Source of the DNA: Alexandriicola marinus
GTDB lineage: Bacteria > Pseudomonadota > Alphaproteobacteria > Rhodobacterales > Rhodobacteraceae
Direction of reading: 5' to 3'
Assembly (NCBI RefSeq): GCF_004000435.1
Contig: NZ_RBVZ01000012.1
Location: forward strand, 593-64,592
DNA: 64,000 bases
Positions 1,389-21,836 of the stretch are shown one piece after another. The position numbers and the translations under genes were made by a program. Position 1 is the stretch's first letter, and each line of letters opens with the position of its first letter. The notes beneath the pieces were generated by a model. The model searched no databases. It was given only the letters and a program-made list of their open reading frames with translations, and was not told the origin of the DNA.

Positions 1389-1443
1389 CAATATCAGTCG
1401 TCCTTTAGCTCTGTCCTAGTCTATTTCATCGCTTAGTGGCTGC

Positions 1444-1800: not shown

Positions 1801-1844
1801 TGATATATTATCCTTTGATCCACTTTAGCAGGAGAACTGCGATC
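1801..1844. promoter_or_regulatory. Divergent control region of the ArsR regulator and CDF pump
   Basis: This AT-rich gap between two divergent starts holds TGATATATTATCC followed by TTTGATCCAC, an imperfect dyad in the usual place for an ArsR-family operator. AGGAGAA at 1830-1836 is the ribosome site for the CDF gene. The operator call rests on position and composition only. Confidence 0.4.
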
Positions 1845-6562: not shown

Positions 6563-6707
6563 GATCGAGAACCAGGCCGGGCTTACTTGTCTCTTGCAGG
6601 CGCTCATGAAGCAGGGCGTGCATCCGTTTCAGGTCGCTTTCGCTGAGCTTGCCCTCGCAGGCGAGGCCAATCGTGTCGTCATGAGCTGTCAGTGTCTCGG
6701 TGAACAT
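6396..6707 (-). CDS. SpoIIAA-like (STAS) protein, truncated by an in-frame amber codon
   Basis: SpoIIAA-like small proteins have a STAS-type fold; their role is not well defined. The start is ATG at 6705-6707, inside the end of the CDF gene. The body contains GKLSESDLKRMHALLHERL, GLVLDLTRFEGYDG and GTRFADVLTTAELR. The frame then meets TAG at 6396-6398. Reading through gives FDPAEMKAAIAWASER and a second TAG at 6345-6347. Family members usually continue as AELRYFD, so the TAG sits exactly where a Tyr codon is expected. The protein thus lacks its last 16-17 residues (the final helix) and may be non-functional. Confidence 0.8.
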   Translation of the reverse strand: MFTETLTAHDDTIGLACEGKLSESDLKRMHALLHERLQETSKPGLVLDLTRFEGYDGPSALLEDLKIDTAHRNDFRRVSVVGEGALLEWGTRFADVLTTAELR

Positions 6708-7659
6708 GGTTTTCCTCCTCTTTTTCCGGTTTGCCGTGACCGTAAAGGTCAGCGTTTTCGTGTGCGCGGTCTTCGTGCTCAAATTCCAGACTCGAATGAC
6801 CGATGCTGAAATCGTCCTTCAGCCGGTCCTTGATCGCGGCCTTGATCTTTTCGATTTGACCCCAGCCGTCCGCTGTCAGCACGACGTGGCAGTCCAGAGC
6901 CGCCTCGTGCTCCTGCATCTGCCACAGATGCACGTGATGAACGTCCGCGACACCATCCACACCCCGCATCGCCTGAACGACGGTTTCATTATCGATGTCC
7001 GGTGGACTGCCGAGCATCAGCGTCCGAATCGGACCGCCGATCTCGGTAAATGCGAGGTAGAGGATGTAGAGAGCGATGCCGATGGTGATCGCCGGGTCGA
7101 CCCACCGCATGTTGTAGAGGAGGATGAGCGAGCCGCCGATGATGACCGCCACGGAGGCCAAAGCGTCCGATAGGTTGTGCAGGAAGAGCGCACGGATGTT
7201 CACGCTGCCTTTCTGCATCGAATAGGTTAGCAGCGCCGTCAACGTGTCGACGACCAGTGCCACACCGCCCAGGATCACCACCGTCCAGCCCTGTACCTCT
7301 GGTGGGTCGATCATGCGCATACCACCCTCGTAGATCAGGTAGAAGCCGATCAGGATAAGTGTCGTGTAGTTGATGAGCGCTGCGACGATTTCTACCCGCC
7401 CATAGCCGAAGGTCATGCGCTTGTCCGCCGGGCGGCGAGCGATCTTACGCGCGAAGAAGGCGATCACCAGCGACGCCATGTCCGAGAAATTGTGGAGGGC
7501 ATCCGCGATCAGCGCGAGGCTGCCGGAAAGGATCCCGCCGACGATCTGCGCGACCGTCAGGAGGCCGTTGGCCCAGATGGCGATGGAGACGCGACGATCA
7601 CCGGATTGAGGATCGATGTGGGCGTGGCCGTGATCATGCGGCACGGTTCGTCTCCTCAT
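6679..7659 (-). CDS. Cation diffusion facilitator, CzcD/ZitB type
   Basis: An inner-membrane Zn/Cd/Co-proton antiporter of 326 residues. His-rich termini (HDHGHAHID at the start; EHEDRAHENADLYGHGK near the end) flank six membrane segments. The binding sites are intact: HNFSD (about residues 56-60) and HNLSD in the fifth segment. The C-terminal cytoplasmic dimer domain carries VHHVHLWQMQEHEAALDCHV. The start MRRRTVPHD is preferred because it overlaps the end of the transglutaminase gene, giving coupling. It is the second gene of the operon driven by the MerR-type promoter at 8227-8257. Confidence 0.9.
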   Translation of the reverse strand: MRRRTVPHDHGHAHIDPQSGDRRVSIAIWANGLLTVAQIVGGILSGSLALIADALHNFSDMASLVIAFFARKIARRPADKRMTFGYGRVEIVAALINYTTLILIGFYLIYEGGMRMIDPPEVQGWTVVILGGVALVVDTLTALLTYSMQKGSVNIRALFLHNLSDALASVAVIIGGSLILLYNMRWVDPAITIGIALYILYLAFTEIGGPIRTLMLGSPPDIDNETVVQAMRGVDGVADVHHVHLWQMQEHEAALDCHVVLTADGWGQIEKIKAAIKDRLKDDFSIGHSSLEFEHEDRAHENADLYGHGKPEKEEENHVHRDTDSS

Positions 7660-8197
7660 GGCGGCGGTTCGGCCGATCGAATCCGGGGACCGGCGGCAAG
7701 ATTCCGCGGCGGATGCGGCGAACCCTGGCATTCATCCAGTGACGGATGACGTGGCGATAGAGCAAGTCGCGCACAAATCCGAAGTTCTGGCGGTGATTGA
7801 CCCATCCGTCGCCCAAGTCCACCTCTACCCAGGAGTGGAGGATTTCGGACGGCGCGAGGGGATAGACGAGTTCCGGAACGACGCCTCTCTGAAGCGCCTT
7901 GTGGATTGTGAACCCGTGCAGTCGGCAGCGAACTCCCACGCCACGCAGCAGGGCCATGAGGAGCGTGCCCTTGGTGTTGCACTGCCCGTGGCCATCTGCG
8001 AGGACCTCGGACGCCGGAATGTCGTCGGCGCGGTTGTAGCCGAAGGTAATCTCGTTCCTGACGAAATCGTAGATGGCCCCAATTCGGTCGTCGCTGGGAA
8101 GGTCTGCCCAGCCGCGCTCCTCGATCAGTTTTGCAATTGAGGTCGCGTCAAAATCCAGCAGCCGGGTTTTGGCCAAATGAGGGTCGGCGGGGTTCAC
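7634..8197 (-). CDS. Transglutaminase-like cysteine protease-fold protein
   Basis: The core has the transglutaminase-like triad: GHGQCNTKG (Cys), HSWVEVDLGDGW (His, Asp). This fold covers proteases and peptide-modifying enzymes; the substrate is unknown. GTG at 8195-8197 is chosen over the upstream GTG at 8219-8221 because AGGAGG sits 6 bases before it, whereas the upstream GTG has no ribosome site. The product has 187 residues, no signal peptide, and is probably cytoplasmic. It is the first gene of an operon with a CDF pump and the STAS gene, so its role is presumably linked to Zn/Cd-type stress. Confidence 0.78.
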   Translation of the reverse strand: MNPADPHLAKTRLLDFDATSIAKLIEERGWADLPSDDRIGAIYDFVRNEITFGYNRADDIPASEVLADGHGQCNTKGTLLMALLRGVGVRCRLHGFTIHKALQRGVVPELVYPLAPSEILHSWVEVDLGDGWVNHRQNFGFVRDLLYRHVIRHWMNARVRRIRRGILPPVPGFDRPNRRHEETNRAA

Positions 8198-8226
8198 GGG
8201 ATACCTCCTCGAATCGTTCACGAGAA

Positions 8227-8257
8227 TATGTAGTTGCTACAGTCACTGTAGCTTCAA
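8227..8257 (-). promoter_or_regulatory. MerR-type promoter/operator, CTACAGT-nn-CTGTAG class
   Basis: On the minus strand, TTGAAG and TACATA are separated by 19 bases that hold the dyad CTACAGTGACTGTAG (8237-8251). The overlong spacer with a central dyad is the hallmark of MerR-family activated promoters. It points at the transglutaminase-CDF-STAS operon. The ZntR-like regulator at 8970-9398 carries the same half-sites at its own start. Confidence 0.8.
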
Positions 8258-8969: not shown

Positions 8970-9398
8970 TCAGGCGCCGATCTCTTCATGGTCGGTCAGG
9001 CATTCGGAATGGTCGCGCAGTACCTCGAGCACACGGCAATCAGAAGTCTGTCCGCCGCTGCACTCATGCACCATCCGCTTCAATTCCGTCCGCAGCGCCT
9101 CGAGCCGCGCCAATCGTTGCTCGACCTGTTTGAGTTGCCGACGGGCTATTGCATCCGCCTCAGCGCAGGACTTTCCCGGATGATCGCTGAGATCGAGGAG
9201 CTCACGGATCGCGTCCAACGAGAACCCCAGTTGCCGTGCGTGCCGGACGAATGACAAGCGGTCGAGTTCGGCGTCGCCATAGCGTCGTTGGCCCCCCTCG
9301 GTCCTGCCGGGCTCAGGCATAAGTCCGATCTGCTCGTAATACCGGATGGTCTGCACCTTTGTTCCGGTCTTCTTCGCCAGCGTCCCAATCGTCAGCAT
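8970..9398 (-). CDS. MerR-family regulator, ZntR/CadR/PbrR-like
   Basis: A DNA-distorting activator: N-terminal winged helix (MLTIGTLAKKTGTKVQTIRY), a dimer helix, then a metal loop. Cys78, Cys113, Cys121 and Cys133 are present; the first three match the Zn/Cd/Pb-sensing set of ZntR and CadR, and the extra Cys is CadR/PbrR-like. MLTIG is a more usual start than the ATG 15 bases upstream. It probably controls the CTACAGT-class promoters at 8227, 9417, 9509, 20538 and 21806. The sensed metal is an inference. Confidence 0.88.
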   Translation of the reverse strand: MLTIGTLAKKTGTKVQTIRYYEQIGLMPEPGRTEGGQRRYGDAELDRLSFVRHARQLGFSLDAIRELLDLSDHPGKSCAEADAIARRQLKQVEQRLARLEALRTELKRMVHECSGGQTSDCRVLEVLRDHSECLTDHEEIGA

Positions 9399-9416
9399 TT
9401 CCGCTCCCCACATTAC

Positions 9417-9431
9417 CTACAGTGGGTGTAG
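9417..9431 (-). promoter_or_regulatory. Operator upstream of the ZntR-like regulator gene
   Basis: The sequence CTACAGTGGGTGTAG has the same CTACA/TGTAG arms as the dyad at 8237-8251 and lies 18 bases upstream of the regulator's start, consistent with autoregulation. TAATGT follows it on the minus strand as a possible -10; the -35 is poor. Confidence 0.65.
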
Positions 9432-9508
9432 CTTTATGCGGTGCGCATCACAAGCTTCACCCGAGTTTCACAGATCGGTGATTGTTGGCCGATCGATGAC
9501 AATCACGC

Positions 9509-9539
9509 TTGAACCTACAGTAGCTAGAGGATGTAAACG
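9509..9539 (+). promoter_or_regulatory. MerR-type promoter of the Sco-Dsb-PCu(A)C operon
   Basis: TTGAAC at 9509-9514 is followed by a dyad-like spacer, CCTACAGTAGCTAGAGG (9514-9530), and a weak -10 near TAAACG. It belongs to the CTACAGT class by sequence, although the downstream genes are copper-handling. This would make the Zn/Cd-type regulator, or a relaxed CueR, control a copper operon. Confidence 0.65.
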
Positions 9540-9575
9540 CACACAAAATATAGAATCAGGTTCGGGCGGAGCGGC

Positions 9576-10178
9576 GTGAGGCTTTCAGGTCTTCAGAAGG
9601 TATTGTGGGTGTTGGCGGGCGCGGCGGCGTTCGTTTTCATCTGGCTGTTGCTATGGTCCGACTACCGTGCCGATCTTGCCCGCACCGAGAGTGAACCACC
9701 GTTTCTTGCTGATTTCGAACTGACCGATCATCGCGGCATGGTCCAAACGGACGAAGATTTCGCAGGGCGCTGGATGCTGGTCTTCTTTGGCTTCACCAAT
9801 TGCCCCGACGTCTGTCCGACAACACTGTCCGAAGTCGCGGCCGTGATGGAGGGCCTGGGCGATGAGGCAGCAATGGTTCAGCCGATTTTCATAACGATTG
9901 ATCCGGAGCGGGATACGCCGACTGCACTTGCCGAGTATGTGCCCCTGTTCGACGCAGGGATCATCGGGCTGACCGGTACACCGGAGCAGATCGCCGCGAC
10001 ATCCGAAACCTTTCCGATATTCTTTGAGCGGATCGAGCAGGCGACTGCGCCGGGCGGATACACGATGGGTCACACGTCGCATCTTTTCCTTTTCGACACG
10101 CAAGCAGGCTTCGCGGACTCCTGGCCCTACGGCACGCCCGCCGAAGAGATCCTCGCCGATCTGAGACAGAGGATCTGA
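9576..10178 (+). CDS. Sco1/SenC copper chaperone-thioredoxin (first copy)
   Basis: A membrane-anchored periplasmic protein of 200 residues. One N-terminal helix (about 9-28) is followed by a thioredoxin fold. The copper/redox site is complete: FTNCPDVCPTT (CxxxC) and the distal His in GHTSHLFLF. Sco proteins carry Cu(I) to cytochrome oxidase CuA and also reduce disulfides. The start is GTG 9576. It opens an operon with dsbB- and dsbA-like genes, pcuC, a second sco and further envelope genes, under the promoter at 9509. Confidence 0.9.
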   Translation: MRLSGLQKVLWVLAGAAAFVFIWLLLWSDYRADLARTESEPPFLADFELTDHRGMVQTDEDFAGRWMLVFFGFTNCPDVCPTTLSEVAAVMEGLGDEAAMVQPIFITIDPERDTPTALAEYVPLFDAGIIGLTGTPEQIAATSETFPIFFERIEQATAPGGYTMGHTSHLFLFDTQAGFADSWPYGTPAEEILADLRQRI

Positions 10179-10183
10179 TCGTC

Positions 10184-10606
10184 ATGACCCGACTTTCCGG
10201 AGAGACGGCCCTTGGCCTGGCCTGGATCATCGCGCTCACCGCGTCGCTTGCCGTGCTCTTCATCGGCGAGGTTCTGGGGCAGACACCTTGCGTGCTCTGC
10301 TGGTTCCAGCGTGCCTTCATGTTCCCCTTGGCCATCATCCTCGGGCTTGGGCTGTGGTGGCAGGATCGGCGCGTGGGTCGCTACGGGATCGCGCTGGCTT
10401 TGGGCGGTGCCGCCGTCGCGCTTTGGCACTTGGGCCTCTATGTCGGCGTTATCCCCGAGCGTATCCAGCCCTGCACGGCGACCGGCCCATCCTGTACCGA
10501 CGACAATCAACTGGTCTTCGGCATTCCGATTCCTTTGATGGCGCTCGTCGCCTTCGCGATGATCGGTCTGCTGTCGGCTCTCTCACTGAAGGAAACACAA
10601 AAATGA
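10184..10606 (+). CDS. DsbB-family disulfide bond formation protein (first copy)
   Basis: An inner-membrane quinone reductase that reoxidises a periplasmic DsbA. It has 140 residues and four membrane segments. The two periplasmic Cys pairs are visible: TPCVLCWFQ after helix 1 and PCTATGPSCTDD in the second loop. The next gene, a DsbA-like thioredoxin, overlaps it by four bases (ATGA), which suggests a dedicated partner pair. A second DsbB-like protein is at 31185-31697. Confidence 0.88.
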   Translation: MTRLSGETALGLAWIIALTASLAVLFIGEVLGQTPCVLCWFQRAFMFPLAIILGLGLWWQDRRVGRYGIALALGGAAVALWHLGLYVGVIPERIQPCTATGPSCTDDNQLVFGIPIPLMALVAFAMIGLLSALSLKETQK

Positions 10607-11262
10607 AACGACGCGGCCTCATCCTGTCCGTTCTCGCGCTCGGGGTCGCCGGTTTCGGCGGTGCCGCCTGGTATGCCACCCGCCCCGACCCGATTGCCGC
10701 GTCCGATCCCATCGACCCTGAAATGGCCGACGCGCTGATCCGACCCTATTCCCCGATCCTCGGGCCCGAGGATGCGCCCGTAACCATCGTTGAATTCTTC
10801 GACCCGGCCTGCGAGGCATGCCGCGCTTTCTATCCGGTCGTCGAGGATATCATGGCGGAGCACGGAGACGCGGTGCGCGTTGTAATCCGCTATACGCCTT
10901 TTCACGGCGAGGCGTCGGTAGAAGCGATCCGTGTGCTCGAGGCGGCGCGCATGCAGGACGTGTTTGAACCTGTGCTCGAGGCAGTCTTGCGAGAGCAGCC
11001 CAGATGGGCGTCTCACGGGACCCCGGCACCCGGATTGATCCTTGAGATTGCAGCAAGCGGAGGTCTGGATGTCGAAGCTGCCCGGACACAGATGCTGGCC
11101 CCCGGTGTTGTGGCGGTGCTCAACCAGGACCGCGCCGATGTCGAGACAGTCGGGGTCCGCCAAACGCCCACGTTCTTCGTGAACGGCAAGCCTCTCGATC
11201 CGTTCGGTGAGGCCGAATTGCAGAGGCTGGTGGCAGTGGAAGTTGCGGCAAGCCAAAGCTGA
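10603..11262 (+). CDS. DsbA-family periplasmic thioredoxin (first copy)
   Basis: A 219-residue exported or membrane-anchored oxidoreductase: an N-terminal hydrophobic segment (about 6-25), then EFFDPACEACRAFYP with the CEAC active site, an inserted helical domain, and the cis-Pro loop RQTPTFFVNG. ATG 10603 overlaps the stop of the DsbB-like gene. Oxidation of periplasmic Cys proteins, or protection of them from copper, is the likely job. A second DsbA with CPYC is at 38912-39643. Confidence 0.88.
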   Translation: MKRRGLILSVLALGVAGFGGAAWYATRPDPIAASDPIDPEMADALIRPYSPILGPEDAPVTIVEFFDPACEACRAFYPVVEDIMAEHGDAVRVVIRYTPFHGEASVEAIRVLEAARMQDVFEPVLEAVLREQPRWASHGTPAPGLILEIAASGGLDVEAARTQMLAPGVVAVLNQDRADVETVGVRQTPTFFVNGKPLDPFGEAELQRLVAVEVAASQS

Positions 11263-11284
11263 TTTGCGGAGGCAGGAGAAACGA

Positions 11285-11755
11285 GTGGTGAAGAAGTTGA
11301 GATATACCAATGCATTGGCCGTGCTTTTGACGGTTGCAGGGCTGTCGGCCCCCGCACTGGCCGGTTCGGAGGATGTCGTGGTCGAGAATGCGTGGTCCCG
11401 CGCCTCGATCGGCGTCAACAGGCCAGGTGCCGCCTATATGACCGTGCGCAACACGGGTGAAGACGCCGTTACGCTGACCGGACTTGCGACACCGCTGGCA
11501 ATGATGCCCGAGATCCATGAGTCGAAAACCAACTCCGATGGCGTCAGTTCCATGGCGCCTGCAGGCGAGATCACGATTGAGCCCGGCCAAAGCGTGGCAT
11601 TGGAGCCGGGCGGGTTGCACGCCATGCTCATGAAGCTGCAAGAGCCGATGACCGAAGGCGAGAATTTCCCGCTGACACTGACCTTCTCGGATGGCGGCAA
11701 GGTGACGGTCGAGGTCCCAATCCTCGGAATCGCCGCGCGTGGACCGGAGGGCTGA
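11285..11755 (+). CDS. Periplasmic copper chaperone PCu(A)C
   Basis: About 156 residues with a signal peptide (VLLTVAGLSAPALAGS). The Cu(I) ligands sit in MMPEIHESK...GVSSM and GGLHAMLMKL, the H/M pattern of the family. PCu(A)C delivers Cu(I) to the CuA site of cytochrome oxidase, usually with Sco. Start: two adjacent GTG codons (11285, 11288) follow AGGAG by about six bases; the track's earlier ATG lies within the upstream gene. It is sandwiched between dsbA and the second sco, whose ATG overlaps its stop (TGATG). Confidence 0.9.
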   Translation: MVKKLRYTNALAVLLTVAGLSAPALAGSEDVVVENAWSRASIGVNRPGAAYMTVRNTGEDAVTLTGLATPLAMMPEIHESKTNSDGVSSMAPAGEITIEPGQSVALEPGGLHAMLMKLQEPMTEGENFPLTLTFSDGGKVTVEVPILGIAARGPEG

Positions 11756-12381
11756 TGCAACGTCGGCAGCTCCTTCTATACGGCGCAGCCGGTGCCGGCG
11801 TTCTTGGCCTGACGCTCTTCGTGGGCTGGTGGCGGGTGGACGGGCCCGGTGCGCCTGAACCAAAAGGGCAGCGGCCCCTGCCCCTATCGGCGATGGAGTT
11901 CCGGCTGACCGACCACGAGGAAAATGAGGTAGGGCCTGGCAACCTGATCGGTCGTCCCACAATGGTGTTTTTCGGGTTCACCTACTGCCCGGACGTCTGC
12001 CCGACGACCCTATCGGATATTTCCGGCTGGCTTGAGGAACTGGGCGACGAAGCATCAGAGATGAACGTGGTCTTCATCACGGTCGACCCGGAGCGGGACA
12101 CGGTCGAGGCCATGGCCGAATATGTCGGCTATTTTCATCCGGTCATTCGTGGCTGGACGGGGCCGGAAGACCAAATTGCCCGCGCTGCAGAAGGGTTTCG
12201 TGCCTCATTTGAGCGCGTCCCGACTGAGGGCGGCGGCTATACGATGAACCATACGGCAAGCGTATTCTTGTTCGATGCCGAGGGTGAGCTCGTCACCATG
12301 ATCGACTATCACGAGCAAAGAGAATTCGCGGTGCCGAAGATCCAGCGCGCACTGACAGAAGACGTAGAGGGGGCAACATGA
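11755..12381 (+). CDS. Sco1/SenC copper chaperone (second copy)
   Basis: 208 residues; N-terminal helix (about 8-26) for membrane attachment, then the Sco thioredoxin fold with FTYCPDVCPTT and the distal His in TMNHTASVFLF. It is a clear paralogue of the protein at 9576-10178, not a recent duplicate. It is coupled to pcuC by a one-base overlap and to the peptidase gene by ATGA. Having two Sco proteins in one operon suggests separate copper-delivery and redox jobs, which cannot be assigned from sequence. Confidence 0.9.
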   Translation: MQRRQLLLYGAAGAGVLGLTLFVGWWRVDGPGAPEPKGQRPLPLSAMEFRLTDHEENEVGPGNLIGRPTMVFFGFTYCPDVCPTTLSDISGWLEELGDEASEMNVVFITVDPERDTVEAMAEYVGYFHPVIRGWTGPEDQIARAAEGFRASFERVPTEGGGYTMNHTASVFLFDAEGELVTMIDYHEQREFAVPKIQRALTEDVEGAT

Positions 12382-13751
12382 AGATAAGAACTGTCTTGGC
12401 GGCCGTTGCGGTCGCAGGCGCATTTTCGGTGACCGCCATCGCCATCTCTGGCGTTCTGTCCAAAGAACCGGTGCCCCCTGCGATTGCTGAAGCGACCCTC
12501 TGGACTCCCAATCCGCTTGCGCCGCCTCGGATTACCGAAACCAATTCGGTCCGCCCTACACTCGCCCAGGCGGATATCGCATTCGAGTTCAGACCCCGGC
12601 CGCTCCTGACCGTTTCCCCCGCTGATACCTCCTTGCCATCTATCGAGCCCCCGCTGGTCACCTGGTCGCGGGAGATTGCGTCCGGCGAGACGCTTGATGC
12701 GGTCCTTTCCGATGCGGGGCTGGATGCTTCGGATCGCGCCGAAATCGCCTTGGCGATTGGCACGGAATACGATCTGCGCCGTCTGCGTCCGGGTCACATC
12801 ATTACGGTGGTTTCCACAACGGACGACAACCCGCGTCGTGTAGAGCTCGCCGTCGAAGACGGTGTCCGGATAGAGGCGGTCTTCGGCGAACAGCTTGCCG
12901 CCCGCGTGTTGGACCCGGATCCCGAATTGGTGACTTTCGCCGGCGAGGCGGTGATCGAGAGCTCGATTTTCGCCGCCCTGAACACGGCAGACATCCCCGC
13001 CCGTTTTGCGGTGGACCTGGCGCAGATGCTGGGCGGCACCGTGGATTTCCGTCGTGATCTTGCGGGTGGCGAGACGATGCGCCTCCTTTGGCGCGAGGCC
13101 CGAGACGGGAACAAGAGGATTGGTCAGCCCGAGCTTGCCTTTGCCGCACTGGATATCGATGGCTCGGTCTATGAAATCGTCTGGCCGAACGACGGCAGCG
13201 GCCAAGCGACGATCTATGTCGACGGAGAAGTCCTGCGCGTGTTTGCGCAACCGGTCGAAGGTGCACGGCTGAGTTCTGTGTTCGGGCGCCGCACCCATCC
13301 GGTCTACGGCAATGTACGGATGCACACAGGAGTCGACTTCGCGGCGGCGCGCGGCACGCCGGTACAGGCGACGGCGCCGGGCCGCGTTAGCTTCATCGGC
13401 CGACGCGGTGGGTATGGCCGGGTCGTCGAGATCGCTCATGGCTCCGACACCCTGACGCGCTATGCGCATCTGAGCGCCGTACCGGACGGGCTCACACAAG
13501 GGCAACGCGTGATGGCCGGAGATATGATCGGGCGGGTCGGTGCGACGGGTACCGCGACAGGCCCCAACCTACATTACGAAGTGCTGGTGGACGGTCGCCC
13601 AACCGACCCTCTCTCTGACGACCGATTGGCAGAGGCGGCCGAGCGTGAAGCGGACGACACGGCCGCGCTTGAGCGACTGCGTGAGGCGCGTTCACTTCTT
13701 GCTGAGAGGCTCGCCAGCGAATTTGCACAGACGACAACCGAAAGGCTTTGA
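12378..13751 (+). CDS. M23-family peptidoglycan metallopeptidase (LytM domain)
   Basis: A 457-residue envelope protein: N-terminal membrane segment (about 5-26), a long linker and fold with LysM/OapA-like character (ETLDAVLSDAGLDASDRAE), then the zinc peptidase domain. Zn ligands are seen in VRMHTGVDFAAARGTPV (HxxxD) and GPNLHYEVLVDG (HxH-type second motif). A C-terminal coiled region with many Glu/Arg residues follows. It cuts, or regulates the cutting of, peptide cross-links in the cell wall. It is translationally coupled to the second sco, so it forms part of the metal-induced operon. Confidence 0.88.
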   Translation: MKIRTVLAAVAVAGAFSVTAIAISGVLSKEPVPPAIAEATLWTPNPLAPPRITETNSVRPTLAQADIAFEFRPRPLLTVSPADTSLPSIEPPLVTWSREIASGETLDAVLSDAGLDASDRAEIALAIGTEYDLRRLRPGHIITVVSTTDDNPRRVELAVEDGVRIEAVFGEQLAARVLDPDPELVTFAGEAVIESSIFAALNTADIPARFAVDLAQMLGGTVDFRRDLAGGETMRLLWREARDGNKRIGQPELAFAALDIDGSVYEIVWPNDGSGQATIYVDGEVLRVFAQPVEGARLSSVFGRRTHPVYGNVRMHTGVDFAAARGTPVQATAPGRVSFIGRRGGYGRVVEIAHGSDTLTRYAHLSAVPDGLTQGQRVMAGDMIGRVGATGTATGPNLHYEVLVDGRPTDPLSDDRLAEAAEREADDTAALERLREARSLLAERLASEFAQTTTERL

Positions 13752-13754
13752 TCC

Positions 13755-14213
13755 ATGAAACGATTTACTCCCGCTCTTGCCATCGCATTTGCCTTGCTTC
13801 CTGCGGCGCAGGCCGTCGCAGAGGCGATTCAGATCGACGTCCGGAAGACAAACGGCTGCGGCTGTTGCCTGTCCTGGATGAAGCACCTCGAGGAGAATGG
13901 CTTCGCGCCGATGGGCGAGGACATGTTCGGAGGATCTCTTGTGCGCTTCAAACTCGACAATGGCGTGCCGCAGCGCATGGTCTCCTGCCATACGGCTTTG
14001 GTCGACGGCTATGTGATCGAGGGCCACGTGCCGGCGGCTGACATCCAACGCCTGCTGGAGGACCGGCCAGACGCGGTAGGCCTGGCGGTGCCGGGAATGC
14101 CCTACGGGTCGCCCGGCATGGGACCGGAGGACGACCGGGAGGCTTACGATGTCTTCCTGATCCACGAAGACGGATCGACCGAGGTCTACACCAGCTACTC
14201 GGCTCCTGACTGA
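13755..14213 (+). CDS. DUF411 exported metal-binding protein (intact copy)
   Basis: 152 residues: signal peptide (ALAIAFALLPAAQAVAEA), then the Cys motif KTNGCGCCLSWMKHL and the downstream SCHTALVDGYVIEGHVPA and GLAVPGMPYGSPGMG. DUF411 proteins are common in copper loci and probably bind Cu in the periplasm through the CxCC and CH residues; the precise role is unproven. It lies three bases after the peptidase gene. The damaged copy at 925-1388 aligns with it along the whole length. Confidence 0.88.
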   Translation: MKRFTPALAIAFALLPAAQAVAEAIQIDVRKTNGCGCCLSWMKHLEENGFAPMGEDMFGGSLVRFKLDNGVPQRMVSCHTALVDGYVIEGHVPAADIQRLLEDRPDAVGLAVPGMPYGSPGMGPEDDREAYDVFLIHEDGSTEVYTSYSAPD

Positions 14214-14235
14214 ACTCGCGGCAGAACCTTAACAA

Positions 14236-15018
14236 TTGGAACCCCTCTCCCCCATAGCGCTTGGCTTTCTTGGAAGCCTGGCCGCCGGATCGCTGACCGC
14301 GGTCGGGGCGGTCCCCGTTCTTTTTGGGCGCATCCCGTCCCGGGCCACGCGCGATCTGCTGCTTGGCTTCGCGGCGGGTGTCATGCTCGCGGCTTCGTTC
14401 TTCTCGCTGATCATCCCGGCTCTCGACGCAGCTGAAGGACAGTTCGACAACGGTGCTCTCCCGGCGGCCATCGTATGTGTTGCGATCCTGCTTGGCATGG
14501 GCGCGATCGCTCTGATGAACGAACGGCTACCGCATGAACATTTCAAGACGGGGCGGGAAGGTCCCGACGCCGCATCGCTGCGGCGCGTCTGGCTTTTCAT
14601 CATCGCGATCACTATCCACAATTTTCCCGAAGGGCTTGCCGTCGGCGTCGGGTTCGGGGCTGACGGTTTGTCGGGCGGGTTGCCACTTGCGATCGGTATT
14701 GGATTACAGAATGCCCCCGAAGGTCTGGCGGTGGCGGTTTCGTTGCTCGGCGAGGGCTATTCCAGGCTTCGCGCCTGGGGCATCGCCGCTCTGACCGGTC
14801 TCGTCGAGCCCGTCGGTGGACTTCTCGGCGCAGGGATTATCAGTCTTTCGCAACCGCTGCTGCCCTGGGGTCTCGCCTTCGCAGCAGGTGCGATGCTCTA
14901 CGTCATCAGCCACGAGATCATTCCGGAAACCCACCGATCCGGCCATCAGAACAGGGCGACGCTCGGCCTCGCCGTTGGTCTTGTGATCATGTTGTTCCTC
15001 GACGTCTGGCTGGGATAA
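14236..15018 (+). CDS. ZIP-family divalent metal transporter
   Basis: 260 residues with eight membrane segments. The metal-site helices are clear: ITIHNFPEGLAVGVGFG (TM4) and GLQNAPEGLAVAVSLL (TM5), and HEIIPETH near the C-terminus. ZIP proteins import Zn, Mn or Fe, though some bacterial members can mediate export-like flow. A ZIP importer inside an efflux island is unexpected unless it restores an essential metal. The start is TTG 14236, with no better ATG. It is followed four bases later by lspA. Confidence 0.85.
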   Translation: MEPLSPIALGFLGSLAAGSLTAVGAVPVLFGRIPSRATRDLLLGFAAGVMLAASFFSLIIPALDAAEGQFDNGALPAAIVCVAILLGMGAIALMNERLPHEHFKTGREGPDAASLRRVWLFIIAITIHNFPEGLAVGVGFGADGLSGGLPLAIGIGLQNAPEGLAVAVSLLGEGYSRLRAWGIAALTGLVEPVGGLLGAGIISLSQPLLPWGLAFAAGAMLYVISHEIIPETHRSGHQNRATLGLAVGLVIMLFLDVWLG

Positions 15019-15022
15019 GCTG

Positions 15023-15496
15023 ATGAGAACTTGCCTCTTCGTCGGTCTGCTTGCTGCGCTGATCGCCTTTCTTGTCGATCAGGCAACGAAGGCAATCGTT
15101 GTGTCCAATGCGACTGTTCTTAGTTCCGGCGTATCGGTCTTTCCCGGCTTCAATCTCATCTACCTGCGCAATGACGGAGTGACCTTCGGGCTTCTCGGCG
15201 GCGCGCCGTGGTGGAGCCTTGTCTTACTGGCGCTTGGCATCTGCGTCTGGCTGGCGTTCATGCTGGTCCGTACCAGCAGCCGGGTCGAGGCCATTGCCTA
15301 TGGTGCGATCATCGGCGGTGCACTCGGCAATATTCTGGACCGCCTGCGCTATCGTGCGGTGACGGATTTCCTCGATTTCTACATCGGGACGGCGCACTGG
15401 CCTGCCTTCAACATGGCCGATGTTTTTGTGGTTGGCGGCGTGATGCTGCTGCTCATTGCGCCGTGGGTTGGCGCTCGACTTCAGACCGATTCATGA
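15023..15496 (+). CDS. lspA: Lipoprotein signal peptidase II (second copy)
   Basis: 157 residues, four membrane segments, both catalytic Asp motifs: YLRNDGVTFGLLGG and FNMADVFVVGG, plus GGALGNILDRLRYRAV. It is a close relative of the enzyme at 2696-3205 but not identical. Its stop overlaps the lnt start (ATGA), so cleavage of the lipoprotein signal and N-acylation are made together. Presence in this operon implies that lipoprotein processing is boosted with metal defence. Confidence 0.92.
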   Translation: MRTCLFVGLLAALIAFLVDQATKAIVVSNATVLSSGVSVFPGFNLIYLRNDGVTFGLLGGAPWWSLVLLALGICVWLAFMLVRTSSRVEAIAYGAIIGGALGNILDRLRYRAVTDFLDFYIGTAHWPAFNMADVFVVGGVMLLLIAPWVGARLQTDS

Positions 15497-17064
15497 AGCC
15501 GGGATTGCCGCAGTTCGTTAGTGAGGACCTGAACCTGTTCCAGCGCATGGGTCTTGCCCTTGCTGCCGGCGGATTGACGGTTTTGACTCTTCCGCCGTTT
15601 TCTTGGCTCATCGCGGTCCCTGTCGCCTTCTCCGTGCTCTTTATCGTTCTCCGGAACATCTCAACCTCGCGCGCTTTCCTTGTCGGTTGGGCTTTCGGAC
15701 TGGGCCAATTCGGGATTGGAATTTCCTGGATCGCCGAGAGCTTTTACGTCGATGCCGAACGTTTCGGCGCACTGGCGATTCCGGCGGTCGCGGGTCTGTC
15801 CGCCGGACTTGCCATCTTCCCGGGCATGGCGGCGATGCTTTTTGCCGCCATCATGCAGCGCCGAGCTGTCGGCGGCATTGCGGCGGGCCTGCTGTTTGCA
15901 ACCTGCTGGGTGGCCACGGAATGGCTGCGGGGTCATGTCCTGACAGGGTTTCCCTGGAACCTTGCCGCTTATGCCCTTGTCGACTATGCCGCCCTGCGCC
16001 AACCCGCCGCCTGGGTCGGAAGCTACGGTTTGGGCTTTCTCACGGTCTTCATCGGCATATTGCCAGGTGTGTTGACTGTGGCGGCGCCAAAGAGACGCGC
16101 GCCTGTTCTCGTGCTCTTCGCCGTTGCTGTGGCGGGTTTCTGGGTTGGCGGTGCGCTTCGGTCAGGGCAGGACGTGCCGCCGACAGACGTTGCTTTGCGC
16201 ATCGTCCAAGGCAATGTGCCACAAGTCGAGAAGTGGGTACCGGGCAGCCGCCAGCGAACCTTGGAAAAATACCTGGGCTTGTCCGCGCAACCCGGACGTT
16301 TCGATTTGCTGCTTTGGCCGGAAACGGCCTTCCCCGGCTTTCTGGACGAAGATGCTGCGGCACGCGCGCGGATATCTGCAGCTTTGCCAGACGGCAGGAT
16401 CCTACTGACAGGTGCGCCTGACCGAGTGGAGGGCGATGGGGGAACCAGATATTTCAACACGGTTCAGGCCTATGACGGCAGCGGCGAGGTTCTGACGGGG
16501 TATGCAAAACATCATCTTGTTCCGTTCGGGGAATATGTGCCCCTGAAAGGCTGGCTGCCCATCGAGCGGCTGACCGAAGGGTTGGGCGATTTCACGCCGG
16601 GACCAGGGCCGCGCACGCTGGCGATCCCTGGCGCGCCTCTGGTCGCGGTGGCGATCTGTTACGAGATCATCTTTCCGGGCCACGTGGTCGATGACCTTTT
16701 CCGCCCCGACTGGATATTCAACGCCACAAATGATGCCTGGTTCGGAACCAGCATCGGACCCGAGCAGCACCTCGCCTCCGCGCGGATGCGCGCGGTCGAG
16801 GAGGGACTTCCCGTGGTCCGGGCGGCCAACACTGGGATATCCGCGATCATCGACGCCAATGGAAATGTCGTCGCGCGTCTTGATACCGGGGAAACAGGCA
16901 CCATTGATGCCGGCCTGCCGGGCGCGCGTACTCCAACGCCCTATGCGCGGTTCGGCGACTGGACCTTGTTGGTTCTTGTTTTTGGGTGCTGGGTCTTCGG
17001 CTGGCTGGCCAGTTTGCTCGGACGAGATCCCGATGCGCGGCATTTTGGAACGGAGGTATCCTGA
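15493..17064 (+). CDS. lnt: Apolipoprotein N-acyltransferase
   Basis: 523 residues: about seven N-terminal membrane segments and a nitrilase-like periplasmic domain from about residue 215. The catalytic Glu-Lys-Cys triad is complete: LLWPETAFPGF (E), YAKHHLVPFGEY (K) and VAICYEIIFPG (C). It adds the third acyl chain to outer-membrane lipoproteins after LspA. ATG 15493 lies in the lspA stop; longer upstream frames overlap lspA entirely. Together with lgt at 27284 the island encodes every step of lipoprotein maturation. Confidence 0.92.
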   Translation: MKPGLPQFVSEDLNLFQRMGLALAAGGLTVLTLPPFSWLIAVPVAFSVLFIVLRNISTSRAFLVGWAFGLGQFGIGISWIAESFYVDAERFGALAIPAVAGLSAGLAIFPGMAAMLFAAIMQRRAVGGIAAGLLFATCWVATEWLRGHVLTGFPWNLAAYALVDYAALRQPAAWVGSYGLGFLTVFIGILPGVLTVAAPKRRAPVLVLFAVAVAGFWVGGALRSGQDVPPTDVALRIVQGNVPQVEKWVPGSRQRTLEKYLGLSAQPGRFDLLLWPETAFPGFLDEDAAARARISAALPDGRILLTGAPDRVEGDGGTRYFNTVQAYDGSGEVLTGYAKHHLVPFGEYVPLKGWLPIERLTEGLGDFTPGPGPRTLAIPGAPLVAVAICYEIIFPGHVVDDLFRPDWIFNATNDAWFGTSIGPEQHLASARMRAVEEGLPVVRAANTGISAIIDANGNVVARLDTGETGTIDAGLPGARTPTPYARFGDWTLLVLVFGCWVFGWLASLLGRDPDARHFGTEVS

Positions 17065-17231
17065 TGCTTGTGATCGTGAGCGCTATCGGAGGCGCGATCT
17101 GGGGTGGCTATCTGGCACGACGGAGGAGGGGGAATCACCTGGATATCCTCCAATATGCGGTAGCGTCTGCGATCGCCTTCGGACTTGTCGCCCCGTTTGC
17201 AACCATCGTGCTGTCGCGGGTTCTCGGCTAG
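17064..17231 (+). CDS. Small membrane protein, unknown function
   Basis: 55 residues with two hydrophobic segments (LVIVSAIGGAIWGGYLA and VASAIAFGLVAPFATIVL) split by a basic loop with five Arg (RRRRG). ATG 17064 overlaps the lnt stop (TGATG), which supports translation. I do not recognise the family. It ends the long operon that begins at 9576. Confidence 0.6.
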   Translation: MLVIVSAIGGAIWGGYLARRRRGNHLDILQYAVASAIAFGLVAPFATIVLSRVLG

Positions 17232-17325
17232 CGAGCTTCGAAATTGCGCAAACGTGTCAGCGGCTTGAAGACCTGATAGCTCGAGGTCCCGATAGAGAAT
17301 CGCGCGAATGTGCATCTAGGCGAGC

Positions 17326-17784
17326 TCATTTCTGATTGAGCCGTCGCTCGAACGCCTCCAATGTCGTCCCGCTGACGTGATGCTCGATCCCTTCCGCATC
17401 GCGTTCCGCGGTCTCTTCGTCGATTCCCAGGCTCAGAAGAAAGGCGACGACGACCCTGTGGCGGCGTCGACAGATCTCCGCGAGGTCCTGCCCGGCATCG
17501 GTGAGGAATATCGCGCGGTATGGCTCCCGCCGGACCAGACCAGCAGCCTTGAGCCGCGAGATGTTCTTGGTCACGGTCGGCGGCTTCACGCCAAGCCGCT
17601 CGGCGATCTCGACCGGTCTGGCCTCCCCGCGCGTCTCGATCAGTTCCGCGATCAGTTCGACGTAATCCTCCGCCATCTCGCTTTCATGTGCCTGACGCAC
17701 GGTCGCAAAGCCATCGGCCTGCGCCTCGGGAGCCCGGTCGACCGCTTCGAATGGCTCACGCCCTTGTGATTGTAGCTTTGTCAT
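17326..17784 (-). CDS. mntR: Manganese-responsive regulator MntR (DtxR family)
   Basis: 152 residues. The winged helix lies at about 45-95 (EIAERLGVKPPTVTKNISRL), followed by a dimer/metal domain with EICRRRHRVVVAFLLSLGI and EGIEHHVS, matching MntR metal-binding Glu/His/Cys positions. MTKLQSQ is preferred to the ATG 36 bases upstream, since MntR proteins normally begin close to there. Divergent from a small secreted-protein gene; the palindrome at 17841-17860 is the obvious binding site. It represses Mn uptake or related genes when Mn is high. Confidence 0.87.
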   Translation of the reverse strand: MTKLQSQGREPFEAVDRAPEAQADGFATVRQAHESEMAEDYVELIAELIETRGEARPVEIAERLGVKPPTVTKNISRLKAAGLVRREPYRAIFLTDAGQDLAEICRRRHRVVVAFLLSLGIDEETAERDAEGIEHHVSGTTLEAFERRLNQK

Positions 17785-17813
17785 ACTCGGGACTTTGCAG
17801 CGAAACAGCGGGA

Positions 17814-17860
17814 TTGACAACTTGTTTGCTTCGGGTAGATAAGTTAGCCATGTCTAACTT
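17814..17860 (+). promoter_or_regulatory. Promoter with MntR box
   Basis: TTGACA (17814-17819) and TAGATA/AGATAA (17836-17842) form a strong sigma-70-type promoter. Immediately after it lies AAGTTAGCCATGTCTAACTT (17841-17860), with perfect AAGTTAG/CTAACTT arms, close to known alphaproteobacterial MntR/Mur boxes. Repression by MntR would block initiation of the gene at 17882. Confidence 0.8.
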
Positions 17861-17881: not shown

Positions 17882-18157
17882 ATGCGAAATATTATGAGAG
17901 TGCTGCTCGCCACACTCGCAAGTGCGCTCCTCCTGTCCGGACCTGTCGCCGCGACGCCGGCCAAGGAGGCGCCTTGGCTTCCCGAGGCAGCGGCCTACCG
18001 TCTGACGCTCTTTCTTGGAAATCTCGAGCCTCTGCCCTGGGACGACATCGAGACCGCCTGGACGGAACCCTACCGGGGTTCGGAATTCCCTGTCGGGGCG
18101 CTGGCGTGGCTGGACCGCAAAAGCGATATCGAGCTACCGAAACCGCCGGATCAATGA
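17882..18157 (+). CDS. Small exported protein under MntR control, unknown function
   Basis: 91 residues: signal peptide (VLLATLASALLLSGPVAA) and a mature part of about 65 residues with no Cys and many aromatic residues (LEPLPWDDIETAWTEPY). ATG 17882 follows TGGAGG by eight bases; the TTG upstream at 17867 is inside that ribosome site. No family recognised. Its 3' end overlaps the convergent ATPase gene by seven bases. Given the MntR box it may act in manganese or zinc/manganese balance, but that is inference. Confidence 0.65.
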   Translation: MRNIMRVLLATLASALLLSGPVAATPAKEAPWLPEAAAYRLTLFLGNLEPLPWDDIETAWTEPYRGSEFPVGALAWLDRKSDIELPKPPDQ

Positions 18158-20505
18158 CCGTGCGCCAGTGCTCCTTTCGCCATCTGCTCGCCCACCGGTT
18201 CTCCGCCTGAAGGCCCGGCCTCAACCTGATGGCCGTTCAGGAGCCGAAGTGCGTTGGCGACCACCAGCAGAGACACGCCTACATCCGCAGCAATGGCGCC
18301 CCACATTGAGGCCATACCGAACGCGGTCAGCCCGACGAACAGCGCCTTGGTCGCCAGCGATATGCCGATATTCTGGTGGATGATCGTCATGGCACGGCGC
18401 GAATGGCCGATAAGCCAGGGTACCTTGCCGATGTCGTCGGTCATCAGCGCGATGTCGGCCGTCTCGATCGCGGCATCCGATCCGACAGCGCCCATGGCGA
18501 TGGCATAATGCGCCCGCGCCATGGCCGGTGCGTCATTCACACCGTCGCCGATCATCGCCACCATGTCGTGGCTTTCGACGAGTTCCTCAATGGCCGTCAC
18601 CTTGTCTTCTGGCAAAAGTTCGGCGCGCACCTCGTCGATGCCGACTTCGGCTGCCACCGCGCGCGCGGTGCGTTCGTTGTCGCCCGTCAACATCACGATG
18701 GTCTTCACACCCTGCGCATGCAGACGCGCAACGATCCCCTTTGCATCTGGGCGGATGCGGTCGCGAAGCTCCAGTACGCCGGTCACGCCGGTCTCGTCAC
18801 CCACGGCAACGAGGGTGCTCCCTGCCCCTTCGATCCGATCCCGCAGATCCGCCGGAATGGCATTGCCGAACCCCTTCTCTTCGGCGAAGCGATCCGAGCC
18901 GAGCCAGATAGCGCGCCCGTCGGCGCGTCCTTCCAGACCGCGCCCGGGCACGGTACGGGTGTCCTCTGCGGCAGACACGGAAACACCATCGGCTTCGGCG
19001 CGCGAGAGGATGGCGCGTGCCAGCGGGTGTGAAGACCGCGCCTCCAGGCTTGCTGCCAGCGTCATGAGATCGCGTGCGGAAACGCCGACCAGTGGGTGAA
19101 CCGCCGCCACCTCAGGCTCGCCCATGGTGATCGTCCCGGTCTTGTCCATCGCCAGTGCCGTGGTCCGCCCCGGCGCCTCGACATAGGCGCCGCCCTTGAT
19201 GAGCACCCCCGCCCGTGCCGACGCGGTCAGCGCTGCCACGATGGAGACCGGCGTAGAAATGACCAGCGCGCAAGGACATGCGATGACCAGAAGGACCAGA
19301 GCATTGTAGAACCAGTAGTCCCAGGCGCCGCCGAGCAGCAGTGGCGGCACCAGCGCGATGGCGATCGCCAAAGCCATCACGATGGGTGTGTAGATGCGCG
19401 CGAACTTGGCCACCCACTGTTCGACCGGCGCGCGGCGGGCATGGGCATCGCCCACCATGCGAATGATTTTCGCGAGCACCGTGTCCGAGGCGGCCTTCGT
19501 CGCCCGCACCGTCAGTGTGCCCTCGCCGTTGATCGTGCCGGCATAGACCTCGTCGCCTGGTTCCTTGGGCACTAGCGCGCTTTCCCCAGTAATTGGGGCC
19601 TGATCGACGGCCCCTGCCCCGTCCACGACCTCACCGTCGAGGGGGATCCGGTCGCCGCCGCGCACGATAAACCTTGCATTGACTGCCACGGCCGCGGCCG
19701 GAACGTCGGATTCAGATCCGTCGTCGTAAAGAACCCGCGCCGTTGGCGGCGCCAGATCGAGGAGCGCGGAAACCGCATTACGCGCCCGCCCCACGCTCCA
19801 GCTCTCAAGATAAAGCGAAAGCGAGAAGAAGAAGGCGACCGTCGCGGCCTCAAAAAACTCGCCGAGGCCGATGGCGCCCGCGACGGCCACCACCATGAGC
19901 AGGTTCATGTCGGGGCTAAGCCTCCGCGCCGAAGACCAGGCCTTGGGCGCGACAAGCCAGACGCCAAAAAGAATCGCGACGGCGAAGATCCCTGCTTCCA
20001 CCATAGGCATAGGCACCTCGCCATGGCCCGCAAAGAGCCCGAGCGCGCCGCCCATGCCGGTCTCGACAATGTGAAAAAGGAATCCCGCCGCCCAGAAGCC
20101 GCCGCTCAACGAGGTAAAGCGCTTCTGACGTGCCAGATGCGCCGCCTGGTCCTCTGCTGCGTTGTCGGCATCCCATGGCTTGGCGCTCATGCCGGTCGTT
20201 GCGACCAACTGCGTGACTTCGTCGTCTGGTATCCTCTCGGCGCTATCGAGGATGGTCATTCGCCCGTTGATCACGTCGAATGCCAGGTGTTCGGTTCCGC
20301 CCACTTTCGGCCCGACAACCCGGTTCAGGATCGCCACCTCTTCGGCGCAATCGAGCCCGGAGACCTGAAAGCTCCTTCCGCCAGACGGCGCTGGCGCCGT
20401 GGACGCGACGTCCTTGCTGGCGTCGCAACAGGAGTTGCCTCTTGGGTCAGAATGCTCTTGATCACCCGGATGACCGTGATCGTTGCGGTTGCCGTCGGAA
20501 GACAT
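18151..20505 (-). CDS. zntA: Zn/Cd/Pb-exporting P1B-type ATPase
   Basis: 784 residues. A His-rich N-terminus (RNDHGHPGDQEHSD) precedes an HMA domain whose metal loop is SGLDCAEEVA (single Cys). Eight membrane segments follow, with VIACPCALVISTP as the transmembrane site. The cytoplasmic domain has the phosphorylation site AMDKTGTIT, the SSHPLAR His motif and [10 protein letters not shown]. The last helix reads ADVGVSLLVVANALRLL, whose Asp marks the Zn/Cd/Pb subgroup rather than Cu. It lies under the MerR-type promoter at 20538-20568, of the same class as that at 8227. Confidence 0.93.
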   Translation of the reverse strand: MSSDGNRNDHGHPGDQEHSDPRGNSCCDASKDVASTAPAPSGGRSFQVSGLDCAEEVAILNRVVGPKVGGTEHLAFDVINGRMTILDSAERIPDDEVTQLVATTGMSAKPWDADNAAEDQAAHLARQKRFTSLSGGFWAAGFLFHIVETGMGGALGLFAGHGEVPMPMVEAGIFAVAILFGVWLVAPKAWSSARRLSPDMNLLMVVAVAGAIGLGEFFEAATVAFFFSLSLYLESWSVGRARNAVSALLDLAPPTARVLYDDGSESDVPAAAVAVNARFIVRGGDRIPLDGEVVDGAGAVDQAPITGESALVPKEPGDEVYAGTINGEGTLTVRATKAASDTVLAKIIRMVGDAHARRAPVEQWVAKFARIYTPIVMALAIAIALVPPLLLGGAWDYWFYNALVLLVIACPCALVISTPVSIVAALTASARAGVLIKGGAYVEAPGRTTALAMDKTGTITMGEPEVAAVHPLVGVSARDLMTLAASLEARSSHPLARAILSRAEADGVSVSAAEDTRTVPGRGLEGRADGRAIWLGSDRFAEEKGFGNAIPADLRDRIEGAGSTLVAVGDETGVTGVLELRDRIRPDAKGIVARLHAQGVKTIVMLTGDNERTARAVAAEVGIDEVRAELLPEDKVTAIEELVESHDMVAMIGDGVNDAPAMARAHYAIAMGAVGSDAAIETADIALMTDDIGKVPWLIGHSRRAMTIIHQNIGISLATKALFVGLTAFGMASMWGAIAADVGVSLLVVANALRLLNGHQVEAGPSGGEPVGEQMAKGALAHGH

Positions 20506-20537: not shown

Positions 20538-20568
20538 GACATAGCCCCTACAGTAACTAGAGCTTCAA
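20538..20568 (-). promoter_or_regulatory. MerR-type promoter of the Zn/Cd ATPase
   Basis: On the minus strand TTGAAG and TATGTC are separated by 19 bases containing CTCTAGTTACTGTAGGG, a dyad of the CTACAGT class (plus-strand CCCTACAGTAACTAGAG). It is placed 33 bases before the ATPase start and is a probable target of the ZntR-like regulator at 8970. Confidence 0.8.
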
Positions 20569-21017: not shown

Positions 21018-21683
21018 TCAACTTCTCGGGGTGACGCTGTCTTCCGCCGAGTACAGGAATGCCGTCGAGCCAATCTCGACGTTGGGATAGAGATCATTGA
21101 TGTGTGCCATGACCATTCGGACGCAGCCGGAACTCGCACGGCCGCCAATGCTTCTTGGATACGGTGTCCCGTGAATCCTTAGATAGGTGTCTCGGTCGCC
21201 GACGAAGAGATAGAGGGCTCGCGATCCGAGCGCGTTTTCAGGTCCGGGTTCCATACCGTCAGCGATATCGGCGTAGAGCTCTGGGTCGCGGTCGATCATG
21301 TTTTGTGTCGGCTGCCAATGCGGCCACCTGACCTTGCGCTTGATCGTATAGGTGCCCGGTTCGTAAAGTTTACCGCGCGCGATCGCCACGCCATAGCGCA
21401 TCGCCGTGCCGCCTTCTTCGATGTGGTAGAGATAGCGCGCAACAGCATCGACATGGATATCACCGGGTACAAGTCCGTCCTTCGCGAGGACCCGCTGTGG
21501 CAGGAAGCGAGGGTGAAGGCCCCAAGGGTTGGACGTGGCCGGGTCGTAGCCGGGAGGTGTAACCTGTGCGTCCCAAGCTGCCTTCTGCGCATCGGTAGGC
21601 CACGTGTCTGCAAGGAGCGGGCTGGATATCGATGCCGAAAACAGCGCGGTGGTCGTCTGGATGAAATGTCGTCTTGTCAGCAT
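21018..21683 (-). CDS. L,D-transpeptidase (YkuD domain), copy 1
   Basis: Forms 3-3 peptidoglycan cross-links, or anchors proteins to the wall. 221 residues: a Tat-like signal (LTRRHFIQTTTALFSASISS), then a YkuD domain with the catalytic motif IHGTPYPRSIGGRASSGCVR (His and the nucleophilic Cys in SSGCVRM). It is a very close paralogue of the enzyme at 30477-31142. The start MLTRRHF matches that paralogue's start. A MerR-type promoter sits upstream at 21806-21836, so this copy appears directly metal-induced. Confidence 0.9.
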   Translation of the reverse strand: MLTRRHFIQTTTALFSASISSPLLADTWPTDAQKAAWDAQVTPPGYDPATSNPWGLHPRFLPQRVLAKDGLVPGDIHVDAVARYLYHIEEGGTAMRYGVAIARGKLYEPGTYTIKRKVRWPHWQPTQNMIDRDPELYADIADGMEPGPENALGSRALYLFVGDRDTYLRIHGTPYPRSIGGRASSGCVRMVMAHINDLYPNVEIGSTAFLYSAEDSVTPRS

Positions 21684-21805
21684 ATAGATTGCTCCGTTCA
21701 CGCATTGGACGGCAAACCGAACCTTACCCCGAACGCAGTGTTGTTCGCCCGGGAAGGAGTGAGGCGTTATTGGCAACTTGCTCCATGGTGCCGTTCTTTG
21801 TCGGT

Positions 21806-21836
21806 GGCTTAACTCCTAAAGCTACTAGAGGTTCAA
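21806..21836 (-). promoter_or_regulatory. MerR-type promoter upstream of L,D-transpeptidase 1
   Basis: On the minus strand TTGAAC and TAAGCC are 19 bases apart, with CTCTAGTAGCTTTAGGAG between them, an imperfect dyad resembling those at 9514 and 20547. The leader to the L,D-transpeptidase start is about 120 bases, longer than at the other sites. Confidence 0.65.

Follow-up and report, generated by a model that had tools for sequence, protein, structure and literature searches.

Eleven consecutive genes on the + strand at positions 9576-17231 of a 64,000-nucleotide stretch of Alexandriicola marinus DNA (contig NZ_RBVZ01000012.1; hereafter the window, at its full length) constitute a well supported predicted operon. 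Together with nearby genes for CDF efflux proteins, a cation P-type ATPase and an L,D-transpeptidase, it appears to form a shared MerR regulon, an assignment that is also well supported. The reading we favour, to which we give roughly even odds, is that the operon serves envelope maintenance within a mobile regulon for resistance to divalent metals (Zn, Cd, possibly Pb) under MerR control, and that it supplies spare, possibly metal-tolerant enzymes.

Open reading frames (ORFs) and Pfam searches placed the genes in the order Sco1, DsbB, DsbA, PCu(A)C, Sco2, M23 peptidase, DUF411, ZIP, LspA, Lnt and a 55-residue membrane peptide (Table 1). Five of the ten junctions overlap (by 4, 1, 4, 4 and 1 bases) and five are separated by gaps of 5, 22, 3, 22 and 4 bases. 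The first-pass annotation had listed the same genes and families correctly, and its statement that most of them overlap was slightly overstated. It had also seen a single promoter, of a class A which we take to mean the MerR-type site at 9509-9538, and this agrees with our results: one MerR-type site lies upstream, and a sigma-70 scan of 9400-17400 detected 0 promoter-like sites (1.9 in shuffles). Terminator-like sites in the same interval occur at chance level (7, with 7.6 expected). The ZIP protein scores below the ZupT cut-off of NCBIfam.

A strong match to the M23 protein (E-value of at most 1e-85) was found in 37 of 295 genomes drawn from the family Rhodobacteraceae. In a class-wide draw of 385 genomes, six, including the window's own, passed an E-value of 1e-60, and the five others fall in three other alphaproteobacterial families. 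The loci examined were 40 from the family, the best 80 of 353 from named genomes and 5 from outside the family; the 126 M23-bearing sequences, window included, formed 35 clusters at 90% M23 identity. Adjacency was kept in 23 of these clusters for Sco1-DsbB, 25 for DsbB-DsbA, 23 for DsbA-PCu(A)C, 27 for PCu(A)C-Sco2, 29 for Sco2-M23, 24 for M23-DUF411, 17 for DUF411-ZIP, 20 for ZIP-LspA, 16 for LspA-Lnt and 14 for Lnt and the 55-residue peptide. Wherever measured, the overlaps are preserved at DsbB-DsbA (23/23), LspA-Lnt (9/9), Lnt-peptide (14/14) and Sco2-M23 (19/19, one value, -1374, being a matching artefact). ZIP, DUF411, LspA or Lnt have been lost from some loci, an L,D-transpeptidase gene follows M23 in L057, L073 and L075, and M23 stands alone in three clusters (L065, L066 and L068); two of these loci, L068 and L065, represent genomes G006 and G047, where M23 is present without operon neighbours. 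The 55-residue peptide, which had no match in a Pfam search and carries no annotation in pDSHI03, is kept in 15 cluster representatives and is a predicted conserved gene.

The gene order thus recurs across Rhodobacteraceae and three other alphaproteobacterial families and is not specific to this strain. The earlier suggestion of one functional unit is borne out by the order, the tight junctions and the single upstream MerR-type operator, all kept over wide divergence, and by dN values well below dS in all eleven genes (computable pairs, for some of which dS is saturated). In the literature searched, which mostly did not extend to subscription papers, the operon as a unit is not described in titles or abstract beginnings. 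The operon is also present, at 82% M23 identity, in a metagenome-assembled genome labelled Porticoccus, presumably a gammaproteobacterium (L131), by either transfer or a binning error.

The regulator encoded divergently from the operon contains the MerR DNA-binding and dimerisation domains (Pfam), and its Cys83, Cys118 and Cys126 align opposite Cys77, Cys112 and Cys119 of CadR (6jgv), which we take to be the metal-site cysteines. It exceeded no curated NCBIfam equivalog cut-off, including those for CueR (122.1 bits, cut-off 147.4), ZntR (121.2, cut-off 143) and CadR-PbrR (108, cut-off 151.45), and was therefore named CadR-like, not CadR. Operators were sought with the pattern TTGANNNTANAGTNNCTANAG, which was built from PbrR/CadR sites and the window itself, so that the following counts show conservation and not independent discovery. 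Allowing at most three mismatches, nine matches were found in the window (0.93 in shuffles), and 0 of 100 shuffles reached nine. Some of the nine coincide, being the same dyad read on both strands or in different registers; the distinct sites lie at 8237, 9509, 20548, 21816, 38557 and 55392. Across the 40 family loci, 90 matches with at most two mismatches were detected, 70 of them on the same strand as a mapped gene and at most 300 bases upstream of it (24 Sco1, 21 transglutaminase, 10 ATPase and 15 others); the remaining 20 were without such a mapped gene, and none of the 90 was counted inside a mapped gene. In 26 dereplicated regions between the regulator and the first mapped gene, the best match had 0-2 mismatches in 17, three in three and four in six, while 520 mononucleotide shuffles never gave fewer than four. 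The sites at 38557-38577 and 55392-55412 (TTGACC...CCAGT..CTGGAA), presumably of CueR type, suggest a separate copper regulon in the window.

Because of the CadR-type cysteines, the adjoining efflux genes and a comparison with R. litoralis, the trigger is predicted to be of Zn/Cd/Pb type, and the operon looks like an arm of such a regulon, not a copper-delivery system. R. litoralis, whose plasmid pRLO149_83 bears a relative of the operon, grows at up to 0.08 mM zinc and is inhibited at 0.04 mM copper; compared with its sister species, it tolerates more zinc and less copper (PMC3141670). Other metal genes on the same plasmid confound this comparison.

The operon LspA scored 112.8 bits against TIGR00077 (cut-off 73.95), with both catalytic Asp residues invariant, and the operon Lnt 302.3 bits against TIGR00546 (cut-off 132.9), with the catalytic Glu, Lys and Cys invariant in 30 rows. 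The A. marinus genome encodes a further Lnt (39% identity) and two more LspA proteins (54% and 39%). At least two Lnt and at least two LspA above the family cut-off are encoded in all 15 operon genomes searched; the operon locus of G048 (L063) is itself without LspA. In the Lnt tree, a branch with SH-aLRT support of 100 separates 16 accessory from 14 housekeeping rows, and in the LspA tree the accessory, CDF-linked and housekeeping proteins each occupy one side of a branch (support 84, 67 and 100, respectively). By these comparisons the predicted LspA and Lnt of the operon are shown to be paralogues distinct from the coexisting host copies. A plasmid-type Lgt gene at 27284-28204, whose product has 61% identity to the host Lgt, adjoins the copper ATPase gene and, together with LspA and Lnt, gives this region a complete set of enzymes for lipoprotein maturation; no class A (MerR-type) operator was found before it.

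Of 37 housekeeping LspA proteins from Rhodobacteraceae, 34 carry the motif SCCG between the catalytic Asp residues (10/10, 5/5 and 19/22; e.g. L003, L223-L231, L292-L296 and L303-L325, with the motif-less L314 excluded and L287/L311, the same gene, counted once). This Cys-Cys pair is present in the housekeeping LspA of all 15 operon hosts examined, in none of 18 operon LspA proteins (15 tree rows plus L302, L326 and L328) and in none of six CDF-linked ones; L301 (G045) was assigned to none of these groups. It is also absent from all 60 LspA proteins of other alphaproteobacterial families (57 drawn loci, two motif-less loci having been dropped, and the hosts' own LspA of G505, G379 and G609). 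The pair is thus a trait of the host family, and the operon LspA has the ordinary form.

Over some 350 residues the operon M23 can be aligned with 6muk and 3slu, and it was assessed as a candidate endopeptidase of the ShyA/NMB0315/MepM type. In the 124 operon-linked M23 proteins (123 of the clustered sequences and that of R. litoralis, which are related and do not represent independent events), the zinc ligands H316, D320 and H399 are invariant, as is the catalytic H364 (LytM H260-type), and the equivalent of LytM H291 is Asn397 in every case. Histidine occupies this position in all 23 comparison proteins, i.e. 3/3 non-operon homologues and 20/20 other M23 proteins of the family; the other four of the five active-site residues are invariant across all groups. 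The 20 controls were hand-picked from the family search list and their alignment required an H-x-H motif, but an independent check allowing any residue found His in the same 20. The operon protein is thus a predicted M23-fold protein in which the second catalytic His is absent. In LytU, the two catalytic His residues hold an inhibitory second zinc with submicromolar affinity (PMC5519744). Asn397 could mean either zinc tolerance or loss of hydrolysis.

We propose that soft metals would activate the CadR-like regulator and thereby induce the efflux genes and the operon together. The pumps would shift metal into the periplasm, exposing those enzymes of the periplasm and membranes that rely on thiols, histidines or zinc; of these the operon would provide further, possibly metal-tolerant versions: Sco and PCu(A)C for assembly of the cytochrome oxidase copper site, DsbA/DsbB for disulfide formation, M23 for peptidoglycan cutting, and LspA and Lnt for lipoprotein maturation. 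The DUF411 protein and the ZIP transporter would be supplied alongside. Such spare envelope enzymes would be the most economical link between the parts of the operon. This proposal draws on the block of lipoprotein maturation by copper in E. coli (PMC6538781), on the zinc induction of LspA and CcdA genes near that of a cadA-type ATPase in Mesorhizobium (CcdA also by Cd; PMC3668242) and on the lit2/lgt2 precedent considered below. We infer a possible metal hardening from the M23, in which the change of His to Asn would deprive a possible inhibitory second-zinc site of one ligand, and from the operon LspA, which lacks the active-site-region Cys-Cys pair of most host enzymes. A bolder version, resistance by target replacement, in which the regulon both exports metal and swaps in a hardened set comprising a zinc-proof M23 and an LspA free of a vulnerable thiol pair, is tentative, and we would sooner doubt than accept it.

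Several points weigh against the favoured reading. LytM lost only 16% of its activity at a 5-fold zinc excess, and second-zinc inhibition was called unique to LytU by the authors, who called both catalytic His residues essential in LytM (PMC5519744); Asn397 may therefore inactivate the operon M23. Since the Cys-Cys pair is a Rhodobacteraceae trait, it offers no general reason for the operon; three operon hosts outside this family have no such pair, and the LspA difference could reflect lineage history. A lower number of cysteines in accessory than in host Lnt was considered and rejected, as the comparison showed no reduction. The step implicated by the copper effect on lipoproteins is that of Lgt, an enzyme encoded outside the operon. 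Finally, the regulator's score, below the cut-off, was marginally highest for CueR.

This last point, with the copper-linked families Sco, PCu(A)C and DUF411 in the operon and the copper ATPase, multicopper oxidase and Lgt encoded nearby, would fit a plain copper-homeostasis operon, induced by copper and serving its delivery and tolerance, with a regulator of misleading divalent-metal appearance. We consider this improbable in view of the CadR-type cysteines, of an operator shared with the CDF and cation ATPase genes, the presumed CueR-like sites lying elsewhere (38557 and 55392), and of the copper sensitivity of R. litoralis (PMC3141670). Copper, the organising theme of the first-pass annotation, thus finds no support as the trigger, given the CadR-type cysteines and the shared operator.

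The loss of one histidine could also be taken to mean that the M23 is a pseudo-enzyme, in which Asn abolishes hydrolysis and which acts as a metal-binding or regulatory LytM-type factor, the operon then serving metal handling and amidase control. The invariance of Asn in all 124 proteins is consistent with this, but each of the 124 retains all three zinc ligands and the other catalytic His, whereas degenerate factors such as EnvC lose these residues. Even though both catalytic His residues were called essential in LytM (PMC5519744), we regard such a function as unlikely. It is likewise rather improbable, to a similar degree, that DsbA/DsbB, LspA and Lnt mature the mobile region's own metal-binding proteins or lipoproteins instead of replacing poisoned host enzymes. 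The Cys-containing periplasmic proteins of the region (Sco1, Sco2 and DUF411) could need DsbA/DsbB, but no dedicated lipoprotein was recognised when the window was scanned for strict lipoboxes, a crude approach that can miss some; of the two candidates, one clearly has no signal sequence and the other is a 74-residue ORF (44952-45176) outside the region. Precipitation of the pbr type, with LspA and a phosphatase trapping metal as phosphate outside the cell, is recommended by the Mesorhizobium authors' comparison of the zinc-induced LspA with PbrC (PMC3668242). It seems highly improbable here, as the operon LspA, an A8 peptidase of 157 residues, stands alone and Pfam detected no phosphatase family among the ten other operon proteins or the 55-residue peptide.

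The pbr lead-resistance operon of Cupriavidus is controlled by a MerR-type regulator through a long-spacer promoter. It resembles the system described here in combining such a regulator, a P-type ATPase and an LspA-like protein (cited in PMC3668242), and differs in that no phosphatase was found by Pfam beside or fused to LspA in A. marinus, which carries an eleven-gene envelope operon instead. The copper operon lit2/lgt2 of Listeria and Enterococcus is also mobile and encodes second lipoprotein-modifying enzymes beside metal-resistance genes (PMC8275575, citing Armbruster 2019). It is metal-induced, as the operon here is predicted to be from its operator and regulator. It differs in being Gram-positive and copper-induced and in encoding Lit2 and Lgt2 (PMC8275575); the present operon encodes M23, Dsb and Sco proteins besides LspA and Lnt, and has a divalent-metal-type regulator. 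For the Zn/Cd response of Mesorhizobium, the accessible text of PMC3668242 reports no Sco-Dsb-M23-Lnt gene order. The metal genes of R. litoralis pRLO149_83 and of a D. shibae plasmid belong to the same operon family; the authors listed metal-resistance genes and measured zinc and copper tolerance, and in the accessible text the envelope genes are undiscussed, and the term "lipoprotein" has 0 occurrences in the whole paper (PMC3141670).

The region around the operon is plasmid-like. The surrounding 17.8 kb match 187 plasmid records, 16 of which cover at least 80% of the query, and near-identical copies occur on Dinoroseobacter, Salipiger, Sagittula, Actibacterium and Phaeobacter plasmids. Type IV secretion genes are located on pDSHI03 about 3 kb from the far side of the first metal gene. 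Many Klebsiella plasmid records were matched at less than 60% identity, and a connection with the M23 gene of enterobacterial copper/silver islands was considered and discarded, the enterobacterial rows listed at an E-value of 1e-20 being mepM. The flanks encode CDF efflux proteins, the MerR-type regulator, MntR, the cation P-type ATPase and L,D-transpeptidases, as well as a CcdA/DsbD-like protein, a copper ATPase, Lgt, a second DsbB and a multicopper oxidase. The SSGC motif of the L,D-transpeptidase, being common, was dropped as an unusual feature. Positions 925-3205 hold a second metal cluster, comprising DUF411, an ArsR-type regulator and, after a CDF gene, a second accessory LspA gene; this LspA has 54% identity to that of the operon, and a 4-base overlap is present there too. 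Positions 17326-17860 hold an MntR-type regulator gene with a dyad-like stretch, TTAGCCATGTCTAA, upstream, followed by a conserved 96-residue ORF for which Pfam gave no match.

Table 1. Positions in the window of the operon genes, the regulator gene and the predicted regulon members with their operators.
Feature	Position	Strand	Evidence
CDF efflux and transglutaminase-like proteins, predicted same regulon	6679..8221	-	Pfam; operator 8237-8257
MerR-type operator of CDF/transglutaminase genes	8237..8257	-	pattern scan
CadR-like MerR-family regulator, divergent from operon	8970..9413	-	Pfam MerR; alignment to CadR 6jgv
MerR-type operator/promoter of operon, 19-base spacer	9509..9538	+	0 mismatches to pattern
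Sco1, SCO1/SenC family	9576..10178	+	Pfam
DsbB-like	10184..10606	+	Pfam
DsbA-like thioredoxin	10603..11262	+	Pfam
PCu(A)C copper chaperone	11285 or 11288..11755	+	Pfam, searched from 11288
Sco2, SCO1/SenC family	11755..12381	+	Pfam
M23 peptidase, Asn397 replacing LytM H291-type His	12378..13751	+	Pfam; alignment to 6muk, 3slu
DUF411 protein, relative of 6wis (presumably the copper protein CopG)	13755..14213	+	Pfam; PDB match
ZIP metal transporter, TTG start	14236..15018	+	Pfam
LspA without host-type Cys-Cys pair	15023..15496	+	TIGR00077 above cut-off
Lnt, E-K-C residues kept	15493..17064	+	TIGR00546 above cut-off
55-residue membrane peptide	17064..17231	+	conserved; dN below dS
Cation P-type ATPase, predicted same regulon	18151..20505	-	Pfam; operator 20548-20568
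MerR-type operator of ATPase	20548..20568	-	pattern scan
L,D-transpeptidase (YkuD), probably same regulon	21018..21776	-	Pfam; operator 21816-21836
MerR-type operator of L,D-transpeptidase	21816..21836	-	pattern scan, 2 mismatches

The usual explanations of metal resistance are efflux, sequestration and oxidation. If the envelope-maintenance reading is true, the replacement of poisoned targets, which is known from some antibiotic resistances, would be added to these, and the operon would name the envelope steps hit by zinc-like metals, i.e. lipoprotein maturation, disulfide formation, assembly of the oxidase copper site and wall cutting. Single-residue predictions are offered for N397 of M23 and for the Cys-Cys pair of LspA.

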